In this document: positions 4,673-56,300 of the stretch, one piece after another
Layout: each line of letters begins with the position of its first letter
Numbering within the stretch: position 1 is the first letter of the stretch
Assembly: GCF_964355755.1 (NCBI RefSeq)
Contig: NC_092673.1
Span: forward strand, 1,803,001-1,867,000
Reading direction: 5' to 3'
Length of the DNA: 64,000 nt
DNA from: Antedon mediterranea
Lineage: Eukaryota; Echinodermata; Crinoidea; Comatulida; Antedonidae
Position numbers and translations under genes: made by a program
The notes under the pieces: generated by a model
What the model was told of the DNA's origin: nothing
What the model saw: only the letters and a program-made list of their open reading frames with translations
The model's database searches: none

Positions 4673-7300
4673 ATATTTTGGCCATTTTATTTTTCTAAAA
4701 AATCCATGTACTATTTTTCTAAAATAGCCAAAATATCATGTTTTTAAAATTCAATTATTTTGCGATAATATTGCTGTATATGATCATATATTGCTTTATC
4801 ATCATCTTATAGTGCCATAGAAGCCATTTTTGTCGAAAAATAAAATGGTCGGAAATTGGCTATTTTTTGAAAAAATCCCTTCGACAAAAGGGATTTTTTC
4901 GAAAAATGGCCAAAATATCAAGTTTTTAAAATTCAATTATTATGCAATAATATTGCTTTATATGATCATATATGGCGTTATCATCATCTTAAAGTGCCAT
5001 AGAAGCCATTTTTGTCAAAAAATAAAATGGTCGGAAATTGGCTATTTTTTGAAAAAATCCCTTACTATAGTACAGGGATTTTTTCGAAAAATTTCCAAAA
5101 TATCAAGTTTTTAAAATTCAATTATTATGCAATAATATTGCTTTATATGATCATATATTGCGTTATCATCATCTTAAAGTGCCATAGAAGCCATTTTTGT
5201 CGAAAAATAAAATGGTCGAAAATTTGCTATTTTTTGAAAAAATCACTTACTATAGTACAGGGATTTTTTTGAAAAATGGCCAAAATATCAAGTTTTTAAA
5301 ATTCAATTATTATGAAATAATATTGCTTTATATGATCATATATTGCGTTATCATCATCTTAAAGTGCCATAGAAGCCATTTTTGTCGAAAAATAAAATGG
5401 TCGGAAATTGGCTATTTTTTGAAAAAATCCCTGTACTATAGTACAGGGATTTTTTCGAAAAATGGCCAAAATATCAAGTTTTTGAAATTCAATTATTATG
5501 CAAGAATATTGCTTTATATGATCATATATTGCGTTATCATCATCTTAAAGTGCCATAGAAGCCATTTTTGTCGAAAAATAAAATGGTCGGAAATTGGCTA
5601 TTTTTTGAAAAAATCCCTTACTATAGTACAGGGATTTTTTCGAAAAATGGCCAAAATATCAAGTTTTTTAAATTCAATTATTATGCAAGAATATTGCTTT
5701 ATATGATCATATATTGCGTTATCATCATCTTAAAGTGCCATAGAAGCCATTTTTTTCGAAAAATTAAATGGTCGAAAATTGGCTATTTTTTGAAAAAAAT
5801 CCCTTACTATAGTACAGGGATTTTTTCGAAAATGGCCAAAATATCAAGTTTTTAAAATTCAATTATTATGCAATAATATTGCTTTATATGATCATATATT
5901 GCGTTATCATCATCTTAAAGTGCCATAGAAGCCATTTTTGTCGAAAAATAAAATGGTCGAAAATTGGCTATTTTTTGAAAAAAATCCCTGTACTATAGTA
6001 CAGGGATTTTTTCGAAAAATGGCCAAAATATCAAGTTTTTTAAATTCAATTATTATGCAAGAATATTGCTTTATATGATCATATATTGCGTTATCATCAT
6101 CTTAAAGTGCCATAGAAGCCATTTTTGTCGAAAAATAAAATGGTCGGAAATTGGCTATTTTTTGAAAAAATCCCTTACTATAGTACAGGGATTTTTTCGA
6201 AAAATGGCCAAAATATCAAGTTTTTAAAATTCAATTATTATGAAATAATATTGCTTTATATGATCATATATTGCGTTATCATCATCTTAAAGTGCCATAG
6301 AAGCCATTTTTGTCGAAAAATAAAATGGTCGGAAATTGGCTATTTTTTGAAAAAATCCCTTACTATAGTACAGGGATTTTTTCGAAAAATTGCCAAAATA
6401 TCAAGTTTTTAAAATTCAATTATTATGCAAGAATATTGCTTTATATGATCATATATTGCGTTATCATCATCTTAAAGTGCCATAGAAGCCATTTTTGTCG
6501 AAAAATAAAATGGTCGGAAATTGGCTATTTTTTGAAAAAATCCCTTACTATAGTACAGGGATTTTTTCGAAAAATGGCCAAAATATCAAGTTTTTAAAAT
6601 TCAATTATTATGAAATAATATTGCTTTATATGATCATATATTGCGTTATCATCATCTTAAAGTGCCATAGAAGCCATTTTTTTCGAAAAATTAAATGGTC
6701 GAAAATTGGCTATTTTTTGAAAAAAATCCCTTACTTTTTCGAAAATTGCCAAAATATCAAGTTTTTAAAATTCAATTATTATGCAATAATATTGCTTTAT
6801 ATGATCATATATTGCGTTATCATCATCTTAAAGTGCCATAGAAGCCATTTTTGTCGAAAAATAAAATGGTCGAAAATTGGCTATTTTTTGAAAAAATCCC
6901 TGTACTATAGTGCAGGGATTTTTTCGAAAAATGGCCAAAATATCAAGTTTTTTAAATTCAATTATTATGCAAGAATATTGCTTTATATGATCATATATTG
7001 CGTTATCATCATCTTAAAGTGCCATAGAAGCCATTTTTGTCGAAAAATAAAATGGTCGGAAATTGGCTATTTTTTGAAAAAATCCCTTACTATAGTACAG
7101 GGATTTTTTCGAAAAATGGCCAAAATATAAATTTTTTTAAATTCAATTATTATGCAATAATATTGCTTTATATGATCATATATTGCGTTATCATAATCTT
7201 ATAGTACCACTATAAGATGATAATAAAGCAATATATGATCATATACAGGAATATTATCGAAAAATTTATTTTGGCCATTTTAAAAAAAATTGCCAACTTT
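4673..7300. repeat. 185-bp tandem satellite with a palindromic core, inverted last monomer
   Basis: About 13 tandem monomers of roughly 185 bp; the marker AAAATGGTCGGAAATTGGC recurs near 4842, 5024, 5209 and so on, up to about 7050. Each monomer holds an inverted repeat around CCCTGTACTATAGTACAGGG flanked by A and T runs. The first monomer is diverged. At about 7205 the array switches orientation: CACTATAAGATGATAATAAA follows the mirror-image end of the previous unit, so a large hairpin forms at about 7170-7245. Short ORFs that recur in every unit are by-products of the repeat, not genes. Confidence 0.93.
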
Positions 7301-25889: not shown

Positions 25890-27139
25890 TCATGAGACTT
25901 TGGCGATCATGTTGTGCCACAATTCTCTGTCTATTGCCATATTCAGCAACTCCACTTCTTTGGTATTCTCGCCTCTATTCCGAATCCATTCAGCTATGCT
26001 GGCCAACCAAGTGACTCTTTTCCTCCCCCTGCTCCTTCTTCCTTCTATTTTCCCCGTTAATGCCAAGTTCTCCAGACCTCCCTTCCTCAACACATGTCCC
26101 ATGAATCTCATCTGTCTAATCCTAATACCCTTCAGTAGTTTCCTGCATACTCCAGCTCTTATCAATACATCTTCATTACTAACTCTATCTGTCCATGGAA
26201 TTCTCATCATTCTCCTTAGAAACCACATCTCACAGCTTTCCAATCTTTTTCTGAGGTCAGTTGTGATTGACCAGGCTTCACTTCCATACATCAGCACAGG
26301 ATAGATGTAGCAGTTTAATACACGCAACCTGGTTTCCATACTCATCGCACAGTTCTTCAAGATATTCTCCATTTCTCCAAATGCGGATTTCGCAAGGACT
26401 ATCCTTCTCTTTATCTCCGTTACACACCTGGCATCATCTGTTATTTTGCTCCCAAGATAGTTAAAAGAGGACACCTGCTGAATTAACTGGTCTCCTGCTT
26501 GAAGGTTACACGTTGGACTCTCCTTTTTGACACTACTAAACACTCTGTCTTACTACAATTTATAGACAGACCCATCTTTTCGCTCTCTACTACAACCACA
26601 TCCAGCAACCTTTGGAGATCTTCAGCTGACTCTGCCAGTAGAACTGTGTCATCTGCATATCTGATGTTTGTAATATTTCTACCACAAATTCTCAAACCCT
26701 TCTCATTATCTAGCTCCCTCAAGATCAACTCGCTATAGTAGTTAAACAAGTCCGGTGACATTACACAGCCCTGTCTCACTCCTCTTCCAATCCTTGTGTA
26801 GTCACTGCACTCCCCATCTACCCTCATGCATGCAGTCTGTTTCCAGTACAAATTTTGCAACAATCTAAGATCCTTTCCATGTAGGTCAAGCTTGCTAAGT
26901 TCTTGAAATAGCTGCTCATGCCTTACTTTGTCAAATGCCTTGGTGTAGTCTATGAAACACATGTATACATCTTTCTGCATCTCCACTGCCCTTTCAGTTA
27001 TCATTCTTATCACAAAGATGGCATTCCTGGTGCCTGAATCCTTTACAAAACCAAACTGCTCACTCCCAATCTCTGGTTTTAATCTGCTTCTTGCTCTCAT
27101 AAGTAGTATCCTCAGAATGATCTTGGTGACATGACTCAT
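25890..27139 (-). pseudogene. LINE reverse-transcriptase domain in two frames
   Basis: Frame one (27139-26483) starts MSHVTKIILRIL and holds RT blocks A to D including YADD. Frame two (from about 26543 to 25890) continues with QVSSFNYLGSKITDDA and the RTE-type C-terminal domain ending IDRELWHNMIAKVS. The break is at about 26530. The ends agree with RTE/BovB elements and not with Jockey or L1. Confidence 0.9.
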
Positions 27140-27266
27140 GAGGCTGATTGTACGATGTTTTTCACATTCTACAGCACCTGGTTTCTTCGGAAAAGGGCAA
27201 TAAAAATGGACTTACTCAAGTCCTCAGGGAAGCTTCCATCCTCGTATATCTTATTGATCACTTCAG

Positions 27267-28907
27267 TTAATTTTCCACTCCATACTCTTCTAATGCCTCA
27301 ATCATCTCGATGACTACACCATCCGGTCCTGCCGCCTTATTCTTCCTCAACCTCTTGATTGCTGTTCGTACTTCTGCTTTCAAGATCTTTGGTCTTTCTT
27401 CTGAGTCAGGAAAGCTTGGCATTGCTTGTCTAACATCAAAAAACAGCTCCCCGATATACTCTGTCCATCTTTTCAAAATATCAGTCTTTTCAACAAGCAT
27501 TGTTCCATCTTTTGCCTTAATGCATCCAGAGTTTGAGCAGCCAGACTTCCTTCCAGTGATCTCATTAAGTCTCTGATAAATCTTGTGGTTGTTGTTCTCT
27601 AGTCCACTCTCAATCTCCTCACACTGTGTGTTAAGCCACTTTTCTTTTGCCTCCCTGCACTTTTGCTTAATTTCTCTATCTAGATCTTTATATTCTTTAC
27701 TTGATCTACTACTAATCTTCTGTCTATCCCTCATCATTGATAGTATCTCTTCCGACACCCATTTGTTCTTCCTTCTTCTCTCTTTCTTAGGTAAGGATTC
27801 TTTGGCTGTCTCAACAAGGATGTCTCTCATTGCATCCCACGTAATCTCTTCACCTTCATCTACAAGGATGTCAAACTTATTCCTCACTTGAATGGAATAT
27901 TCCAAACGGATCTCCGGACTGTTTAGCTGCTCAAAGTCTAATTTCTGTACATTTTTGGCTTTCTTCACCTTTTTTAACTTTGATTGAAGTGTGCAAACCA
28001 CTGGAATGTGGTCACTTCCACAATCTGCCCCTGGATATGTTTTTGCATGAGTCACTGCCCTTTTCCACCTACTGTTTACTGCAATGTAGTCAATCTGATT
28101 CCTCGTCACATCACCAGGGCTCTTCCATGTGTATATTCGTCTGGGAGGCTCTTTAAACCATGTATTTGTTATGGTCATATCCTTAGCTTTACACCAGTTC
28201 ACCCATCTGTCGCCACGCGCATTTCTTTCACCCATCCCATGCTCTCCAACTGTGTTTCCATCTTGTTCCTGGCCAACCTTTGCATTCAGATCACCCATGA
28301 TGAAATTTATCTCATCTGATTTGCATTGGGATTTGGCCTGGTCTAAGGTCGCATAAAAGTTATCTATCTCTTCATCTGTGCAGTCAGCTGTAGGTGCATA
28401 AACCACTATGATAGAGATATTGAAGGGTTGTCCCTGCAGTTTGACCAGCATAACTCTTTCACTCACAGCCCAATAGCCCAGCATACATTTAGCCATATCA
28501 CCATCCAAAAGCAACCCTACACCTTTTTCATGTTTGTCTCCTCCAGCGTAAATCATCTTGTAATCATCAATCATAAATTCACCATTATTTGTCCAATGAG
28601 TTTCATTTATCCCTAATATATTGATATTGAGTCTTATCATTTCCTGCTTAACATTTTCAAGTTTGCCATCTTGATACAAGGTCCTCACATTCCACGTTCC
28701 TAGTCTGATTGTACTTCTATTGCGGACAGTAGCTTGATGACGGTCGAGCTCCACCTGTCGCACATGAGACACCCTACCGGGCGAGGAGCCTCCTTCATAC
28801 GATGGATGTACCCCCTTTACGCCGTTAGCTTTCATTCTTGAATTGTGACACTTCATAATTGTTCTTGGAAAAATGATAGTGAAGTGGTTTCCCGTTGCCT
28901 TCTTCAC
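27267..28907 (-). pseudogene. LINE endonuclease ORF (5' part of the RTE-like polyprotein)
   Basis: A 546-residue open frame covers the N-terminal extension, the whole apurinic/apyrimidinic-like endonuclease (about residues 66-310, with N73, E102, D206/N208, D273 and the SDH triad at 298-300 visible), a basic linker and the start of the reverse transcriptase (KNKAAGPDGV). It stops at GVEN by a frameshift; the next frame continues KLTEVINKIYEDGS. The protein would nick target DNA to prime reverse transcription. Confidence 0.9.
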
Positions 28908-29237
28908 TGCAGTCTATCAGCCATAAATGGGATCACCATCTTGCCTGACAATGTGTACTGAGGTCTGCCGTTGTCCTAGAAATGGATCTTCCGCCGAGAC
29001 ACCCATACTGCATCACTGCTGCCTAATGCAGGGCATGGCTAGGCCTATTTAGAGGCGGCCTAAACTCGCCTCTACTGCAGAACGTATTTGGGGATATGCC
29101 GGTTTTATGACCCTGTTGGTGCCACCCAACAGCGCCCGACACCCTGCTGTTACTGCAGTCCTCCTTTAGTCGCCTCTTACGACACGCGGAGCTTTCGTGG
29201 GGGGTATTCTTTTATCAGAACCCTCCCCCAGGCCATT

Positions 29238-45740: not shown

Positions 45741-46868
45741 ACTAAAATCGCAATCTTTCAAACTTACAATAGGAATTAACTGTATACTTTTTTAATGATA
45801 TAAATGCACACTCAACACACCGTATCGCCACGTGTTGTCTCGGACGATTGATCGTTCTATGCAACGCCAGTGGTGCCTTTTAAAAAATCGTAGTCGCGCA
45901 TCTTAATTTCTAAAGCTCGACTATCAGTGTGGTTTCCATTCTAAACCAGACGCAGGGCCAAATCGTCCTGGAACCTTAGGCCGCACCACAACATTAATAG
46001 ATGATCCGAGATCGCGTCGTGAAAGTAATAAAACACAATAAGACATCTTGGGACGACACTAGAGTTTCTTAGTTATCTTTCATTCATGATGAATACATAA
46101 CAATATATAAATTCAATATTGAATCTTATCATCCACAGTTAGTCAAGGTTCTACACAACGGCTTGTATTTCATTGCTTGGAATATGCAATATGCTTCTCT
46201 ACTTTAAGTTCATTCTTAGTGGACCTGATTATGCAATCTTATTATAATTTATATATACAAATTAAATAAAATAATAATTAATTATAAAATCAATGTTTTT
46301 AATTTATAATCTCAGCTGCGACGGCTTTTTCACATTCTCACAGATTTTCTCATCTTTATCATTTCTAAATATATTAGTATTTACATATAATATTTTACAG
46401 ATAGCAAAAATTGTTCCTACCATTTAAGAAATCGCACTTAAAAATGAGATACAGCTATATTGATCTCTGGTAGGTCTTAGTTGTTGAACAAAAATGCATT
46501 ACTTCTATTGTTCTCAGACCTATCCATAATTTAAAAAAAAATAACATTCACCTTGGTGCGAAAAGTTCTGTATTTCGATGTATTCTGGTGGAGAGTCACA
46601 TTTACTATTTACACTTTACAACAATAAACAATATAAAAGTATTTCAGGTATACAGTAGTATATCGTTGGTGGTGTTGTGTGGAAGAGCAGGGCTTGAAAT
46701 TAAGTGGATCAGCCAACGGGTTATTGGAACTTGTTCCTCAATTTGTCTGCCCTCCTCCTCTATGTAGTTTTTATTCACTTAAATACATTTATTTGAAGGA
46801 AATAAATATATTATTATTACAAGTATAGTTTTTAATTGCACATTTTCCAGATCTACTGTACATGGCTG

Positions 46869-47043
46869 TAAAGCTCTGTCTACACTATCAAACAATATGT
46901 GACAAAACAATGTGATGTGCCCATAATATGGACATGATGATGTCATATCACTCCCATATTTGGGCATACAGCACAGTATCACTACCCTTTGGGAACATCA
47001 CATTTTTTTGTCACATATTGTTTGATAGTGTAGACAGAGCTTA
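46869..47043. mobile_element. Palindromic MITE, family A copy 5
   Basis: TIRs TAAAGCTCTGTCTACACTAT and GATAGTGTAGACAGAGCTTA; inner GTGATGTGCCCATAATATGG and its mirror. It lies in the 3' flank of the CARD/DD gene, about 100 bp after its stop codon. Confidence 0.9.
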
Positions 47044-47139
47044 AGAATGTTGTCCTCTACAATTTGATAAGTTGCACATTTCCATATTATTGGGAGACAT
47101 TTTACCACAACTACTGTAATTGTTATACAAAGTGGTTTG

Positions 47140-50100
47140 TTAGAATGCTTTTTTCATGAAGAAAAGAGCTGCTTCTGCTCCTGCAGTTACGAGTTTCGAC
47201 GTGAATGATTGGCCAGCGGCCGAAGCTGAATTGATTGGAGGATCCACGGAGGTCTCATCACATGGTGCCACCACATCTTGTCTATCCTCCTCCTCTCCCT
47301 TCCCACCATTCCCCTGAACACCTTCAGCAACCAATTCCCTATCTTCTTGATGCTGCCCAACAAATTCATGAACACTTCCTGCATTCACATCTTCTTGGGA
47401 CTGCATCGATTCCATTTCAAATTCTGCATGTCCTGATCCACTTTCTTGCATCGATGGCTCAATACTTGATCCCTCATTCTGTGAAGGCATTAATTCCGTT
47501 TCTCTCGATGCTGCAATATCCACAGATGCTGGTACATTTGACTGTTCTTCCATCAATTCAGGGTCATTTGAGCTCTGCTGTACCAATGCAGTTACACTTG
47601 ATCTGTCAACATTCACAGATGCTGGTTCCTTTGGTTTAGTTTGTGCTTCCAAAACCGAATGTGGTATGTAGGGTTCACTTACAGCAATTTGACTATTGAA
47701 TGGTGGTTGGTTGTCATCTCTCAGGGTCACTGGTAGTGAGGTAGGCACATACGGCAATGTTTCTCCGCAACTAACTAAAGAACTGCCGCCCCTCAGTGCT
47801 CTCTCTTGTTTTGGCTGGTTATCCTTAGGTTTAACATTACTTTCTTTATTGTCAGACTTTCTTGCAGCTGGGCTTGTCATAGGATTTATGTTGGACTCTA
47901 GAGCAGGGCTGGATATACCAACATTTGATGTCATTTCTTGTGATCTGGATAACTTTACCGGAGATTCTTTAACACTGCCACCATGTTCATTCTCTATTTT
48001 TATATCATCTGGAATACTATAATTTTCTTTCTCTTTGCCTTCTTGCTCTCTCATCATCAATATATCAGATGCTATCTGGCTTACTTGCTTATTTCCCTGA
48101 AAATATATTGGAAAGTCATACTTTATTTTGTCTAGACGACATATTTGTAGTGAATTGGGTGTAGTGAATGAAATAAAGAGAAAAAGTAAAAGAGAATTTG
48201 GTGGAACAAAAGATTTATTGACTAAGTTATGTTGAACACTGTTATATTCTTGTGTGCTTAAATCAGATAAGTTTAAAAAGTTCATCATAATCATAGTCTT
48301 ACCTCGATTTTCCCTTCTGTTTTTATTTCATCAATATTATGGAATTGTCGAATATCAGATACCAGATCAACTCGCTTCAATTCTTGTAAACGTTCAACTA
48401 GTTCTACCAATTTCATTCCAGATGTTTTCAACTTTTCATACATCTCTGAAGCATCCTGAATGTTGTCAACTTCATCCACAGACATATCTAAGAAAATTCA
48501 AAACATAATCCTTAATTATGTTTAGCAATAAGAACAAAATGACGTATTTGATTGGTATAATACAATTAATACAAATAATACAGCTAGTAATCAGTGCAAA
48601 GTTGTGTCTTGATCTAACCCTAAAGTTCAGTACTTTTTTATTGGCATGCTAAATGTTTATTAAGTTAAAAAGGCTTGTTGATACTTATTAACACTAAAAA
48701 ATACAGTACTCGGAAAAAAAAACCATATTCAAGTCCCCAAATTAGTATGCTAAATATTATTTAAAGATAATTTACCCAAATTAGCTGCCAATGATTTCCA
48801 GTTATTGTTTGGATATAAGTTGTGGTTCATTCTTTTATTGAATGCTTCTCGTACGCCTTGTTTAGCTTGTCCTAAGGTCAGTTTATGTATATCTACTACG
48901 TCAGATGTCCGTCGCTGCAAGCCTTCTTTATTATCTTGATTTAACAAAAGGTATGCAGAAAGTAATCACAATTAGCTAGATAATATTATGAATATTACTA
49001 TAGATATATTCATGGAGAAATAACTTATTTCCCCATGATATATTATACTATTTCTATATTACCAAAAGCATACAGTACAAATCCTTACTTACGAGAATGG
49101 GAATGGTGATATTCTCGATAGTCACCCCCGTACCCTACATCTAGCCTTGGGCTTGTAGGAGTTGACGGTTGATGAATTCCCGCTGTTGTCATTGCAGGGG
49201 TCCGTTGTTGACTGTATTGTTGTATTGAACTTGAGGTGGGCAGGACAGGACTTAAAGGAGTCAGGGCAGGACTTGTTGGTATTTGGCTTGAAGTAGATTG
49301 ATGTTGTTGTTGACCAAGTACTTGTGAACTTTGTTGTTGAACTCGTTGATGTTGTTCTGCAGGGGAATGCAATTGACTGAATTTCGATCCTAGATCTGAG
49401 CTTTCCTGATGAGGAGAAGAGACTGTCTGCTCAACTCTACTAGTGGATGATGCTCTATTGTATGCATCCGTTTCAACCTGATGTTCCTCCTCAACATCAT
49501 CTTTTAACAAGTTCAATAACTCTTCATATTCACACTCTTTCAGTGCTTCCATTAGGCAGTCATACCAATCACTGTCAGCCTTTGTCAACTTCATGAGTAG
49601 TTCCTCTGCTCCTGCTTCATGCCCGTCATTTTTAGTTCTGCATGTTATACCTTCCTAAATAATAAAATTTCTTTTTTTTAAGTACTCTTGGGTGGGATTC
49701 GTTTCAAGATGGGCTTCTTTTTGAGATGGGCTTCTTTGGGGGGGGGGGGGGGGGGCTTTTTTTCGAGAATAATAAATAATAGAAAATAAAACGAAAAATG
49801 TTGAAAGACCAGTGTTGCCTAAAGCTCTTTCTACACTATCAAACTATTTTGACAAAAAAAGTGTGATGTGCCCAAATATGGTAGTGATATGACAACATCG
49901 TGTCCATATATGGGCACATCACATTTTTTTGTCACATAAGTTTGATAGTGTAGACAGAGCATTAGGATGGATGGATGCAACTGGGGTAATAAGACCTTTG
50001 TGTATATTTGGTTTTCCCTTATTTATTAGGCAAACACATTACAGAAAAACTGAATAATTCACCTTGGTTCTCTTATGCATTTTAGGGAAATAACCCAACA

Positions 50101-50188
50101 TTGCAAGGGGGTCCACTGTTTTAACAAACTTGTTATGGTACTTGTTAAGGCGCTTCTTTCTTTCATCATTCCTCTTGTTCTTATCCAT
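47140..50188 (-). CDS. CARD and death-domain adaptor-like protein (MAVS-like layout)
   Basis: Five exons in phase: 50188-50063, 49654-49093, 48934-48776, 48487-48303, 48096-47140; 662 residues. Residues about 12-96 look like a CARD: FVKTVDPLAMLGYFPKM, then HEAGAEELLMKLTKADSDWY and CLMEALKECEYEELLNLL, the usual helix 4-6 pattern with a W and an LxxAL. Residues about 100-225 are Ser/Pro/Gln-rich linker. Residues about 245-345 fit a death domain: NNNWKSLAANL, DNIQDASEM, GMKLVELVERLQELKRVDLV. A long disordered acidic region follows, with SMQES and other TRAF-site-like words. The last residues, SKLVTAGAEAALFFMKKAF, form a short hydrophobic stretch between basic residues, a possible weak tail anchor. 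I infer an innate immune or cell-death signalling adaptor; the RIG-I/MAVS link rests on layout only. It is too long to be CRADD. Confidence 0.72.
49738..49757. repeat. Poly(G) run
   Basis: About twenty G in a row in the first intron of the CARD/DD gene; assembly length may be unreliable. Confidence 0.8.
49820..49963. mobile_element. Palindromic MITE, family A copy 6
   Basis: TIRs TAAAGCTCTTTCTACACTAT and GATAGTGTAGACAGAGCATT; inner GTGATGTGCCCAAATATGGT with its mirror ATATGGGCACATCACATTTT. In intron 1 of the CARD/DD gene. Confidence 0.9.
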
Positions 50189-53309: not shown

Positions 53310-56300
53310 CTACAGTCCCTTGTTGTACATCAACGTCACTTCTTTCGTAGAGTCTTGAATCTCTTTTTCCAGCTTGGATGTTGCAATCTGGAAAAACGAT
53401 TTGTATTCATTATTATTATTATTTATTTAGGTAAAAGATATTACATTTTACAAAATATAATACAAATCAACAAATTAAACCAGGGAGTTGTTATTAGAAC
53501 AACTCCCTAACAAACACAATGCATGCACAAGCCAATATACACTTGCTTGAAACACTGATTTGATTTTCATATATTTGTAAAATATGTAAATATGTTTATA
53601 AAATGTAAATAAATCTAGTGATCACATTATTAGCAATCTTTGTATCCATGCTTTTTTATCCTTGACATTGTTTGTTCAGGACAGGATTTACCCATACATA
53701 CAAACTACTTCCCATGACGCAATTAAAGAATACATAATAAAAATAAATTAAAAATAAAGAATACCACACAATTGAATTTCAAACCATCAGCAAGTAAACA
53801 TAAAAGCTCTTCGGTATCAGATTAGTCAAGGTTAGTTAATATTCATTTAAAATAAGAATTAATAAACATAATATTAGCAGCAATAACAACTGTATAATGA
53901 GTCTCAAGTATAGAAAATTACTTTGTTGCTTTAGTCTACAAGGGGTACAATACTACAAATCAATCAAAACATTTATTTTTTTTTCTTTTTCCTTGGAACC
54001 ACCAGTGGTAAAATTGTGTTTCGACATGTAATAGCATTGCTTTGATCCGCATTAACGCGAACTGCGCAATTGCGGAGTTGTAAGGCAATGTTTTGTCTAC
54101 TCCAGATCAAAACGAAAAAGCCAAACTGATTTTTAATGTCATATATTTCGATGCTGGGCCATTCGTTTATTGCTTATCAAGCAGTAAAGTCATAAATTGT
54201 TATATTTAAAGAGCCAAAGTTAATTTAATTATATTGCAACAATATCTTTAAAATGAAACGGGAAAACTAAGTATATGAAGCAGAAAAATTTTTCAAATTT
54301 TTCCAGCAATCATCACAATTTTTCAAGCTATATACTTTACTATTGCAGGATGGCGACAAGTAACAATCCAAAAATTGCAAAGAAACCAGAGATGAAATGT
54401 ATTTGTGAAAATAAAGAACAGGTTGAAAATTACTGCCAGGAATGTGAACATTACTTGTGCCACAGCTGTAGCAAACCACATAAACTACTTCCAACAACCA
54501 AAAAACATACTCTACTCTCAGCAGACGAAGTGCAGACAATGACGCCACAGCAATTTGCATTATTAAAACCAGCCATTTGTTTCACTCATGATAAGCCACT
54601 AGAGATGTACTGTACAACATGTAAAGTACCAATATGCATAAATTGTACAGTAACAAGGCACAAGGCAACAGAAGACCATGACACAATTGATGTTGCAACA
54701 GCGTTCAATACATTTAAGGAGACGGCAAAAGAGTTACAAAGAGCTGCTGATAAATACACTAAAAAACTAAACTATGGAATACAATCCGGTAACAGGATTG
54801 CTGAGAAACTCAAAGAAAGTAAAGAAACAAGTTTAAGAGGTATTAGACACCAAGTTCAGGAAATGATAAACATAATCAAGAAAAATGGTGATAAGATGGA
54901 AAAAAAAGTTCAAGCGATTTATGAAAATTATACAGCTGTAAATGATGGACACATGAAGAAATTACGAGAAATTAAATCTGAATTGAAAGAAAATGAGGAA
55001 TTTCTTGATGAGTTAGTAAAGGGTGAACCAGCAACTGCTATGACATTAAGTGAAAGTGCATTAAAAACACTGAAAGATCAAATTAACAATTCTATAGAAA
55101 CCAAGCCAAAAGACAATGGAAGTATTTCATTCTTTGGAAACAGAAATCAAATTGATTTGCTGAAACAACACAACATAGGAAATGTTACGCAAGTTATAGA
55201 CTATTTGACAGTTACAGCACCAGAAGCAGTGACCCAAGGTCAACCAATTGTTATGAAAATCAGCAAACCACAAACATGTATTTCACCAAAACTGAAAGCA
55301 ACATGGACACCACCTTCAGGAAAAACCAACAATGCTCTTGTTGAAGATGATAACAATGACAATTATGTTATAAGAGGAGTATGTACAACTGAAGGAATCT
55401 GTACATTAAATGTACACATCAATGATGCACCAATCAACCAATCACCAATTAATATCAAAGTAGAGAAGGAAGGATTGGTAAATGAAATTAGACTTGATGT
55501 TAAAACCTATGGACTGCTCAAGTGTGATGATGGTGATTTGCTGGTTTCCTGTTTTACAAATGAAATTTACAAATACCTACAATCAGAAAAATATGTAAAT
55601 AAGATAATACTACCAAAAGATGTTGAAGTTAACAGAATGTACAAAATGAAGAATTACAAAATAGTATTCAGTGATACAGGTAATAAATGCATTCAAGTTT
55701 GTGATATGAATGGTAAAATGATCAAATCAATTGGCAAAGGAAAATTGACAGAACCATATGGTATCCATATAGATGAGAAAACAAATGTTGTGTATGTAGC
55801 AGACTTCACAACTGGATGTTGCATTTTAACATTTGACATTAATAGTGGTGAGGAGTTAATAAAGATAGGACAACAAAAAGGAGGTCAATTTAAATACAGT
55901 GATGTTACACTTACAAAAACTGGTGAAGTGCTTCTAGTAGACAGGGAAAACCATCAAGTATTATTATATGATAAGGACAACAAGTCATTGAAAGTACTAA
56001 TAGATAAAGGACTTGAAGATGGTAAGGTGCATACACCATGGGCAGTTGTAGTTGATGATGATGATAACATCATTATAGCAAGTGATAACAAAGTACAACT
56101 ATTTAGTAGTGATGGACAATTCATCAAAATAATCAGTGGAGATAATTCACATCAGTTATGTGTCATTTCAAGTCACCCACGCAGGATTGCCATACCATAT
56201 TGGATTTATAACACAATTAAAATATTTAATTATTAAAATTTACGGATAAATCAATATCCTAAGTTTACTGTGAAATTAATCTAATGATATTACTGGAAAT

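Follow-up and report, generated by a model that had tools for sequence, protein, structure and literature searches.

A candidate RLR adaptor with a predicted CARD and death domain in the crinoid Antedon mediterranea

The Pacific oyster adaptor CgMAVS, described in 2017, combines a CARD with a death domain and a transmembrane tail; it binds the CARDs of RIG-I as well as TRAF6, its transmembrane part is required for both RIG-I CARD binding and self-association, and its knockdown led to more deaths from OsHV-1 (PMC5557890). Within the deuterostomes, a MAVS candidate has been tentatively reported in sea urchin, a clustering of RLR and MAVS genes has been proposed for the ancestral deuterostomes and is still found in amphioxus, and one model holds that MAVS arose only within this group, when an RLR CARD was copied into a new gene (PMC4565553). 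The pairing of CARD and death domain within one RLR adaptor is already known and not new; the gene described here differs from CgMAVS in its missing anchor and in its occurrence in a deuterostome. CARD and death domain are also combined in CRADD (RAIDD), a protein of about 200 residues that serves caspase-2 and PIDD.

The gene lies in a 64-kb stretch of DNA (C4:1803001-1867000, hereafter the window) of the 354 Mb, 18-contig assembly of Antedon. A strong match to bindin (2.3e-28), a family not known outside echinoderms, accords with this origin; a search with mitochondrial COX1 as a lineage marker gave no match. Its predicted protein resembles CgMAVS in carrying an RLR-type CARD at the N-terminus and a death domain after it, as compared by published layout rather than by alignment, and in being a single adaptor alongside two-CARD RLRs; however, no counterpart of the C-terminal transmembrane domain of the oyster protein was detectable. 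With vertebrate and amphioxus MAVS (IPS-1) it shares a single N-terminal CARD of the CARD_2 type, a long low-complexity Ser/Pro-rich linker and the lack of a helicase, but it has neither a tail anchor nor a pLxIS motif, its TRAF motifs are at chance frequency, and it would contain a death domain, which vertebrate MAVS lacks. The likeness to CRADD lies in the pairing of a CARD with a death domain without a membrane anchor, whereas the CARD is of the CARD_2 family instead of PF00619 and the protein is much longer, with a linker and an acidic tail. Compared with the RLRs of the same genome, one of which (RLR-A) has the closest CARD in its CARD2, the candidate lacks a second CARD, the helicase and the C-terminal RNA-binding domain, and its CARD is split by an intron whereas RLR CARD2 is encoded by a single exon.

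A five-exon gene and its surroundings

Five minus-strand exons (50188 to 47140 of the window) join in phase into an ORF of 1989 bp encoding 662 residues and a stop codon, and all exon borders are GT-AG. Exon 1 (50063..50188, residues 1-42) contains the ATG, a K/R-rich N-terminus and the first CARD helices and ends at a GT donor, and exon 2 (49093..49654, residues 43-229) encodes the remaining CARD and then a Ser/Gln/Pro/Thr-rich linker. The two halves of the putative death domain are encoded by exon 3 (48776..48934, residues 230-282), which holds the N-terminal half with an NNNWKSLAANL motif, and exon 4 (48303..48487, residues 283-344), which holds a C-terminal half shortened in the helix 3-4 region. 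Exon 5 (47140..48096) encodes residues 345-662 and the stop, comprising low-complexity sequence, an acidic stretch and the C-terminal end SKLVTAGAEAALFFMKKAF. The ATG has the context AGGATGG, with an in-frame TGA immediately upstream, and two AATAAA polyadenylation signals (46793 and 46775; 46770..46798, minus strand) were found about 350 bases past the stop.

Not one of 3000 shuffles of the 562 bp exon, nor of the 957 bp exon, kept the frame open. GC at codon positions 1-3 is 54%, 38% and 33%, respectively, compared with 30% in the introns. A pseudogene or a chance ORF was rejected on the basis of these shuffles together with the codon-position GC. The inner splice joins are backed by the completion of both domains in the joined exons: the CARD_2 score was none for exon 1 alone and 40.4 bits for exon 2 alone but 60 bits for the two joined, and joining lifted the death-domain score to 25.8 bits from the 13.3 bits of exon 4 by itself. 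The earlier note, made from the same DNA, had proposed five exons in phase giving 662 residues; the splice borders, open frames and domain-completing joins confirm this, and the tail letters that it quoted, SKLVTAGAEAALFFMKKAF and then the stop, were read correctly. The candidate is a real gene. A whole-genome search with the full protein found no paralogue.

Inverted-repeat, MITE-like elements with GCTCTGTCTACACTATCAAAC ends were observed at 46867-47045, 49825-49960 and around 37600 of the window. The first two lie inside the candidate gene, in the probable 3' UTR and in intron 1, respectively, and elements with the same ends also occur in the RLR loci. Elsewhere in the window we noticed an array of repeat units of about 185 bases with a common open frame (4821-7127), the remains of a non-LTR retrotransposon whose frames resemble an endonuclease and a reverse transcriptase (25893-28913, minus strand) and a TRIM-like open frame of 659 codons that encodes B-box zinc fingers (54257-56233, plus strand). 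The neighbouring genes include TMEM128 and a LYAR-like gene, the latter read from its start with a weak profile match; these two are presumably also adjacent in human, though not beside MAVS. No helicase or RIG-I C-terminal domain was found in the candidate protein or in the adjacent frames, and an NCBIfam search gave no matches.

The CARD and its relatives in the genome

The Pfam CARD_2 model (RIG-I/MAVS-type) matches residues 7-93 with E=6.8e-15, well above its cut-off, whereas the general CARD family PF00619 scores 13.7 bits against a cut-off of 23.9. A search of this region against solved structures found the RIG-I CARDs, and a profile built from it and two RLR CARDs of the same genome found RIG-I, MDA5 and MAVS. 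An AlphaFold model, for which these two RLR CARD rows served as the alignment, reached a pLDDT of 82.8 and is a six-helix bundle with the first helix split, as is usual in CARDs. Foldseek with this model returned RIG-I as the top matches, and VIA-align gave Z scores of 15.6 for MDA5 CARD2 and RIG-I CARD1 and 14.1 for the MAVS CARD, followed by the Apaf-1 CARDs with a Z of about 14. Because the Apaf-1 CARDs are nearly as close, the fold alone cannot separate the CARD families, but the sequence does. Profile and predicted fold together identify residues 7-93 as a CARD of the RLR/MAVS family. The CARD-like N-terminus of the earlier note is thus borne out, both in the profile search and in the structure prediction that it had suggested, and the comparison that it proposed with the RLR CARDs of the same genome identified RLR-A CARD2 as the nearest sequence among those compared (28% identity, 45.8 bits). 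The corresponding values for the human MAVS CARD are 22.7 bits and 23% over 64 residues. A tree of nine CARDs, human ones included, contained no supported branch and placed the candidate loosely with the CARD2 sequences. The human MAVS and MDA5 CARDs used were identical, letter for letter, to PDB entries; those of human RIG-I in the tree are presumed sequences, covered in part by the retrieved matches. The CARD intron is in phase 0 and about 8 bases away from the RLR CARD1 intron (phase 1). The intron position is near but not at that of RLR CARD1, and we dropped it as proof of kinship.

Three CARD_2 places were found in the 354 Mb assembly: two are in two-CARD RLRs with a helicase, and the third, that of the candidate, lies outside any receptor. 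In RLR-A (C4:35.66 Mb) the two CARDs, the helicase and the C-terminal RNA-binding domain are in the same locus; in RLR-B (C4:4.37 Mb) the two CARDs and the helicase have the C-terminal RNA-binding domain just downstream, at C4:4.376 Mb. All three CARD_2 places and all three strong RIG-I C-terminal domains are on C4. The chance that two independent RLR places both fall on C4 is about 0.01, for a linkage that was noticed post hoc, and this location agrees with the RLR-MAVS clustering proposed for ancestral deuterostomes (PMC4565553). Among possible partners, the genome has a FADD-like gene at C6:9.65 Mb, which encodes two DEDs plus a death domain, and two IRF places. Places that match the general CARD model number at least 17, those with a death domain at least 150 and those with a DED 90.

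Several other arrangements of death-fold genes were observed in the assembly. Near-identical sets of CARDs (C4:16569624, 16716088; C3:17087669, 25294453; C9:14164749), death domains (C4:16633354; C3:17167606, 25213443; C9:14043612) and paired DEDs (C4:16658379; C3:17144891, 25187799; C9:14107698) recur on three chromosomes, each within about 100-150 kb, apparently as large repeated or mobile segments with death-fold genes on them. The death-domain places also form large tandem clusters at C3:19-25 Mb, C5:12-14 Mb and C9:20.2-20.9 Mb. An RLR-like gene at C1:13816000-13825900 carries DEDs instead of CARDs, together with a helicase and a match to the RIG-I C-terminal domain, and resembles the DED-type RLRs reported in lophotrochozoans (PMC8998645). 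Two tandem-DED genes at C4:1899000-1908900 and 1919000-1928900, 50-75 kb from the candidate, are followed by GTPase and COR-like exons; the COR-A match is just under the cut-off, and they may encode DED-ROCO proteins.

The death-domain region, the linker and the C-terminal end

In whole-protein searches, residues ~272-330 matched Death_EDAR with an E value of 4e-4 and Death with 0.03, both under the Pfam cut-offs. An independent death HMM, built from 13 other death domains of the same genome, scored 25.8 bits on the candidate compared with 11.6 bits for the best of 2000 shuffled copies. Both the core (NNWKSLAANL-DMSVDEVDNI) and the end (LxxRLQELKRVDLVSDI) are present in the alignment, and about 11 residues are missing in the stretch of helices 3-4, which are usually longer. 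The structure model of the region was poor (pLDDT 62.8); a Foldseek search with it revealed nothing significant, the single match being the p75NTR death domain with E=3.1, and VIA gave a Z of 2.5 to FADD, which is too low to count as evidence. A profile search that found FADD, ankyrin and RIPK1 was set aside, the other eight rows of its alignment being ordinary death domains, and phmmer matches to designed TIM barrels were discarded as repeat artefacts. A shortened death domain at residues ~272-330 is therefore supported by sequence. For the death-domain-like centre that had been claimed earlier, the same-genome profile agrees and the poor structure model gives no confirmation, and the DEATH profiles that were to be checked did match, yet below their cut-offs.

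The long low-complexity Ser/Pro/Gln linker was described correctly, as S, P, Q and T make up 52% of residues 100-229, and so was the acidic tail, with a net charge of -16 over residues 561-640. The final 22 residues are slightly basic. A membrane tail, however, was not recovered: within the last 40 residues, the highest hydropathy over any 19 residues is 0.79, compared with 2.5 for the presumed sequence of the human MAVS tail. TRAF sites in the linker received no clear support either: the three [PSAT]x[QE]E (TRAF2-type) motifs found (PHQE, PKQE and SMQE) compare with 2.6 expected by chance, and scans of the linker regions found no TRAF6 motif and no LxIS, i.e., no pLxIS. As predicted from hydropathy, the acidic region and the short hydrophobic end do not amount to a conventional tail anchor. 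In the +1 frame after the stop (47060-47130, minus strand) we observed PLCITITVVVVKCLPIIW, which includes the hydrophobic SNKPLCITITVVVVKCLPIIWKC and could be a membrane tail out of frame; a frame of equal hydrophobicity is present in 5% of the 100-base pieces of the 64-kb window.

Readings of the protein and what they mean

We consider an RLR adaptor of CARD-death type that lacks a conventional tail anchor to be the best explanation, at somewhat better than even confidence. It is favored by a CARD_2 match far above that of the general CARD model, by the RIG-I, MDA5 and MAVS CARDs as the closest folds (Z 14-15.6), by RLR-A CARD2 as the nearest relative, by the position of the candidate as the sole non-receptor CARD_2 among the three in the assembly, and by its location on C4 with the RLRs. 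The FADD-like gene and the two IRF places in the genome also speak for it, as do the layout of oyster CgMAVS and its binding to RIG-I CARDs (PMC5557890). Against it stand the missing tail anchor, given that the oyster protein needs its transmembrane part (PMC5557890), TRAF motifs at chance level and no pLxIS, the poor death-domain model, a CARD intron about 8 bases and one phase off the RLR CARD1 intron, and a C4 linkage seen after the fact. Orthology to MAVS is left without tree support, since the tree of the nine CARDs has no supported branch. Of the MAVS-type reading in the earlier note, the RLR/MAVS-family CARD stands and the tail anchor does not; TRAF and pLxIS motifs are at or below chance. 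We do not classify the candidate as MAVS, because a tail anchor defines MAVS and none was found; it probably acts as does that half of MAVS which faces the RLRs.

The absent anchor also fits a cytosolic scaffold for caspases or NF-kB, built of a CARD and a death domain, that works outside RLR signalling and whose CARD, though derived from an RLR, has another CARD partner. This is the plan of CRADD, and the many CARD, death-domain and DED places offer possible partners, but a CARD that belongs to the RLR/MAVS family and falls below the general CARD cut-off argues against it, and CRADD itself is far shorter and has no linker or acidic region; we regard such a scaffold as unlikely. A decoy or brake, in which a free RLR-type CARD caps RLR CARD filaments and the death domain ties them to another complex, would likewise agree with the lack of an anchor and of any TRAF or pLxIS motif above chance, and with RLR-A CARD2 as the closest CARD. 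However, decoys usually shed effector parts, whereas this protein has 662 residues and retains a long open linker and a second putative domain for interactions; we consider the decoy quite improbable.

The remaining explanation takes the gene as an ordinary tail-anchored MAVS whose end was mis-modelled, either because one base is wrong in the assembly or because a splice close to the stop was missed. The oyster (PMC5557890) and amphioxus (PMC4565553) proteins do have a transmembrane tail, hydrophobic SNKPLCITITVVVVKCLPIIWKC follows right after the stop in the +1 frame, and an A6 run adjoins it, where a one-base assembly difference would shift the frame. On the other hand, 5% of the 100-base stretches of the window are equally hydrophobic in some frame, a lysine lies inside the SNKPLCITITVVVVKCLPIIWKC stretch, a search near the end of exon 5 found no good internal splice donor, and the interval from the stop to the next gene yielded no replacement exon encoding a transmembrane segment; we hold a mis-modelled end to be very unlikely.

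If the candidate is an RLR adaptor, viral double-stranded RNA would activate a two-CARD RLR of Antedon, the CARDs of which would nucleate the N-terminal CARD of the adaptor into oligomers by CARD-CARD contact. The long low-complexity linker would then present clustered death domains that may recruit a partner, e.g., the FADD-like DED-DED-death protein of the same genome, with DED-caspase or NF-kB signalling as the outcome. The step from RLR to adaptor is suggested by the family to which the CARD belongs, by there being a single CARD_2 copy outside the receptors and by the oyster precedent, and the putative recruitment step by the death-domain match and the presence of partner genes. Because the gene model has no tail anchor, MAVS-like membrane placement is not expected; the adaptor is predicted to be probably cytosolic, or attached to a membrane through a partner or through a weakly amphipathic end.

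A more tentative scenario, which we think rather unlikely, is that CARD-then-death, common to the oyster protein and the Antedon candidate, was the original bilaterian layout of the RLR adaptor, that chordates lost the death domain, and that the Antedon lineage, in which the anchor was lost or never present, signals from the cytosol through the assembly of death domains. The relay of RLR signals in invertebrates is little known, with one characterised adaptor from a mollusc. An echinoderm candidate with a CARD and a putative death domain in an oyster-like layout makes an older origin of the adaptor directly testable, and its missing anchor raises the question of whether a membrane is required for RLR signalling in every case.
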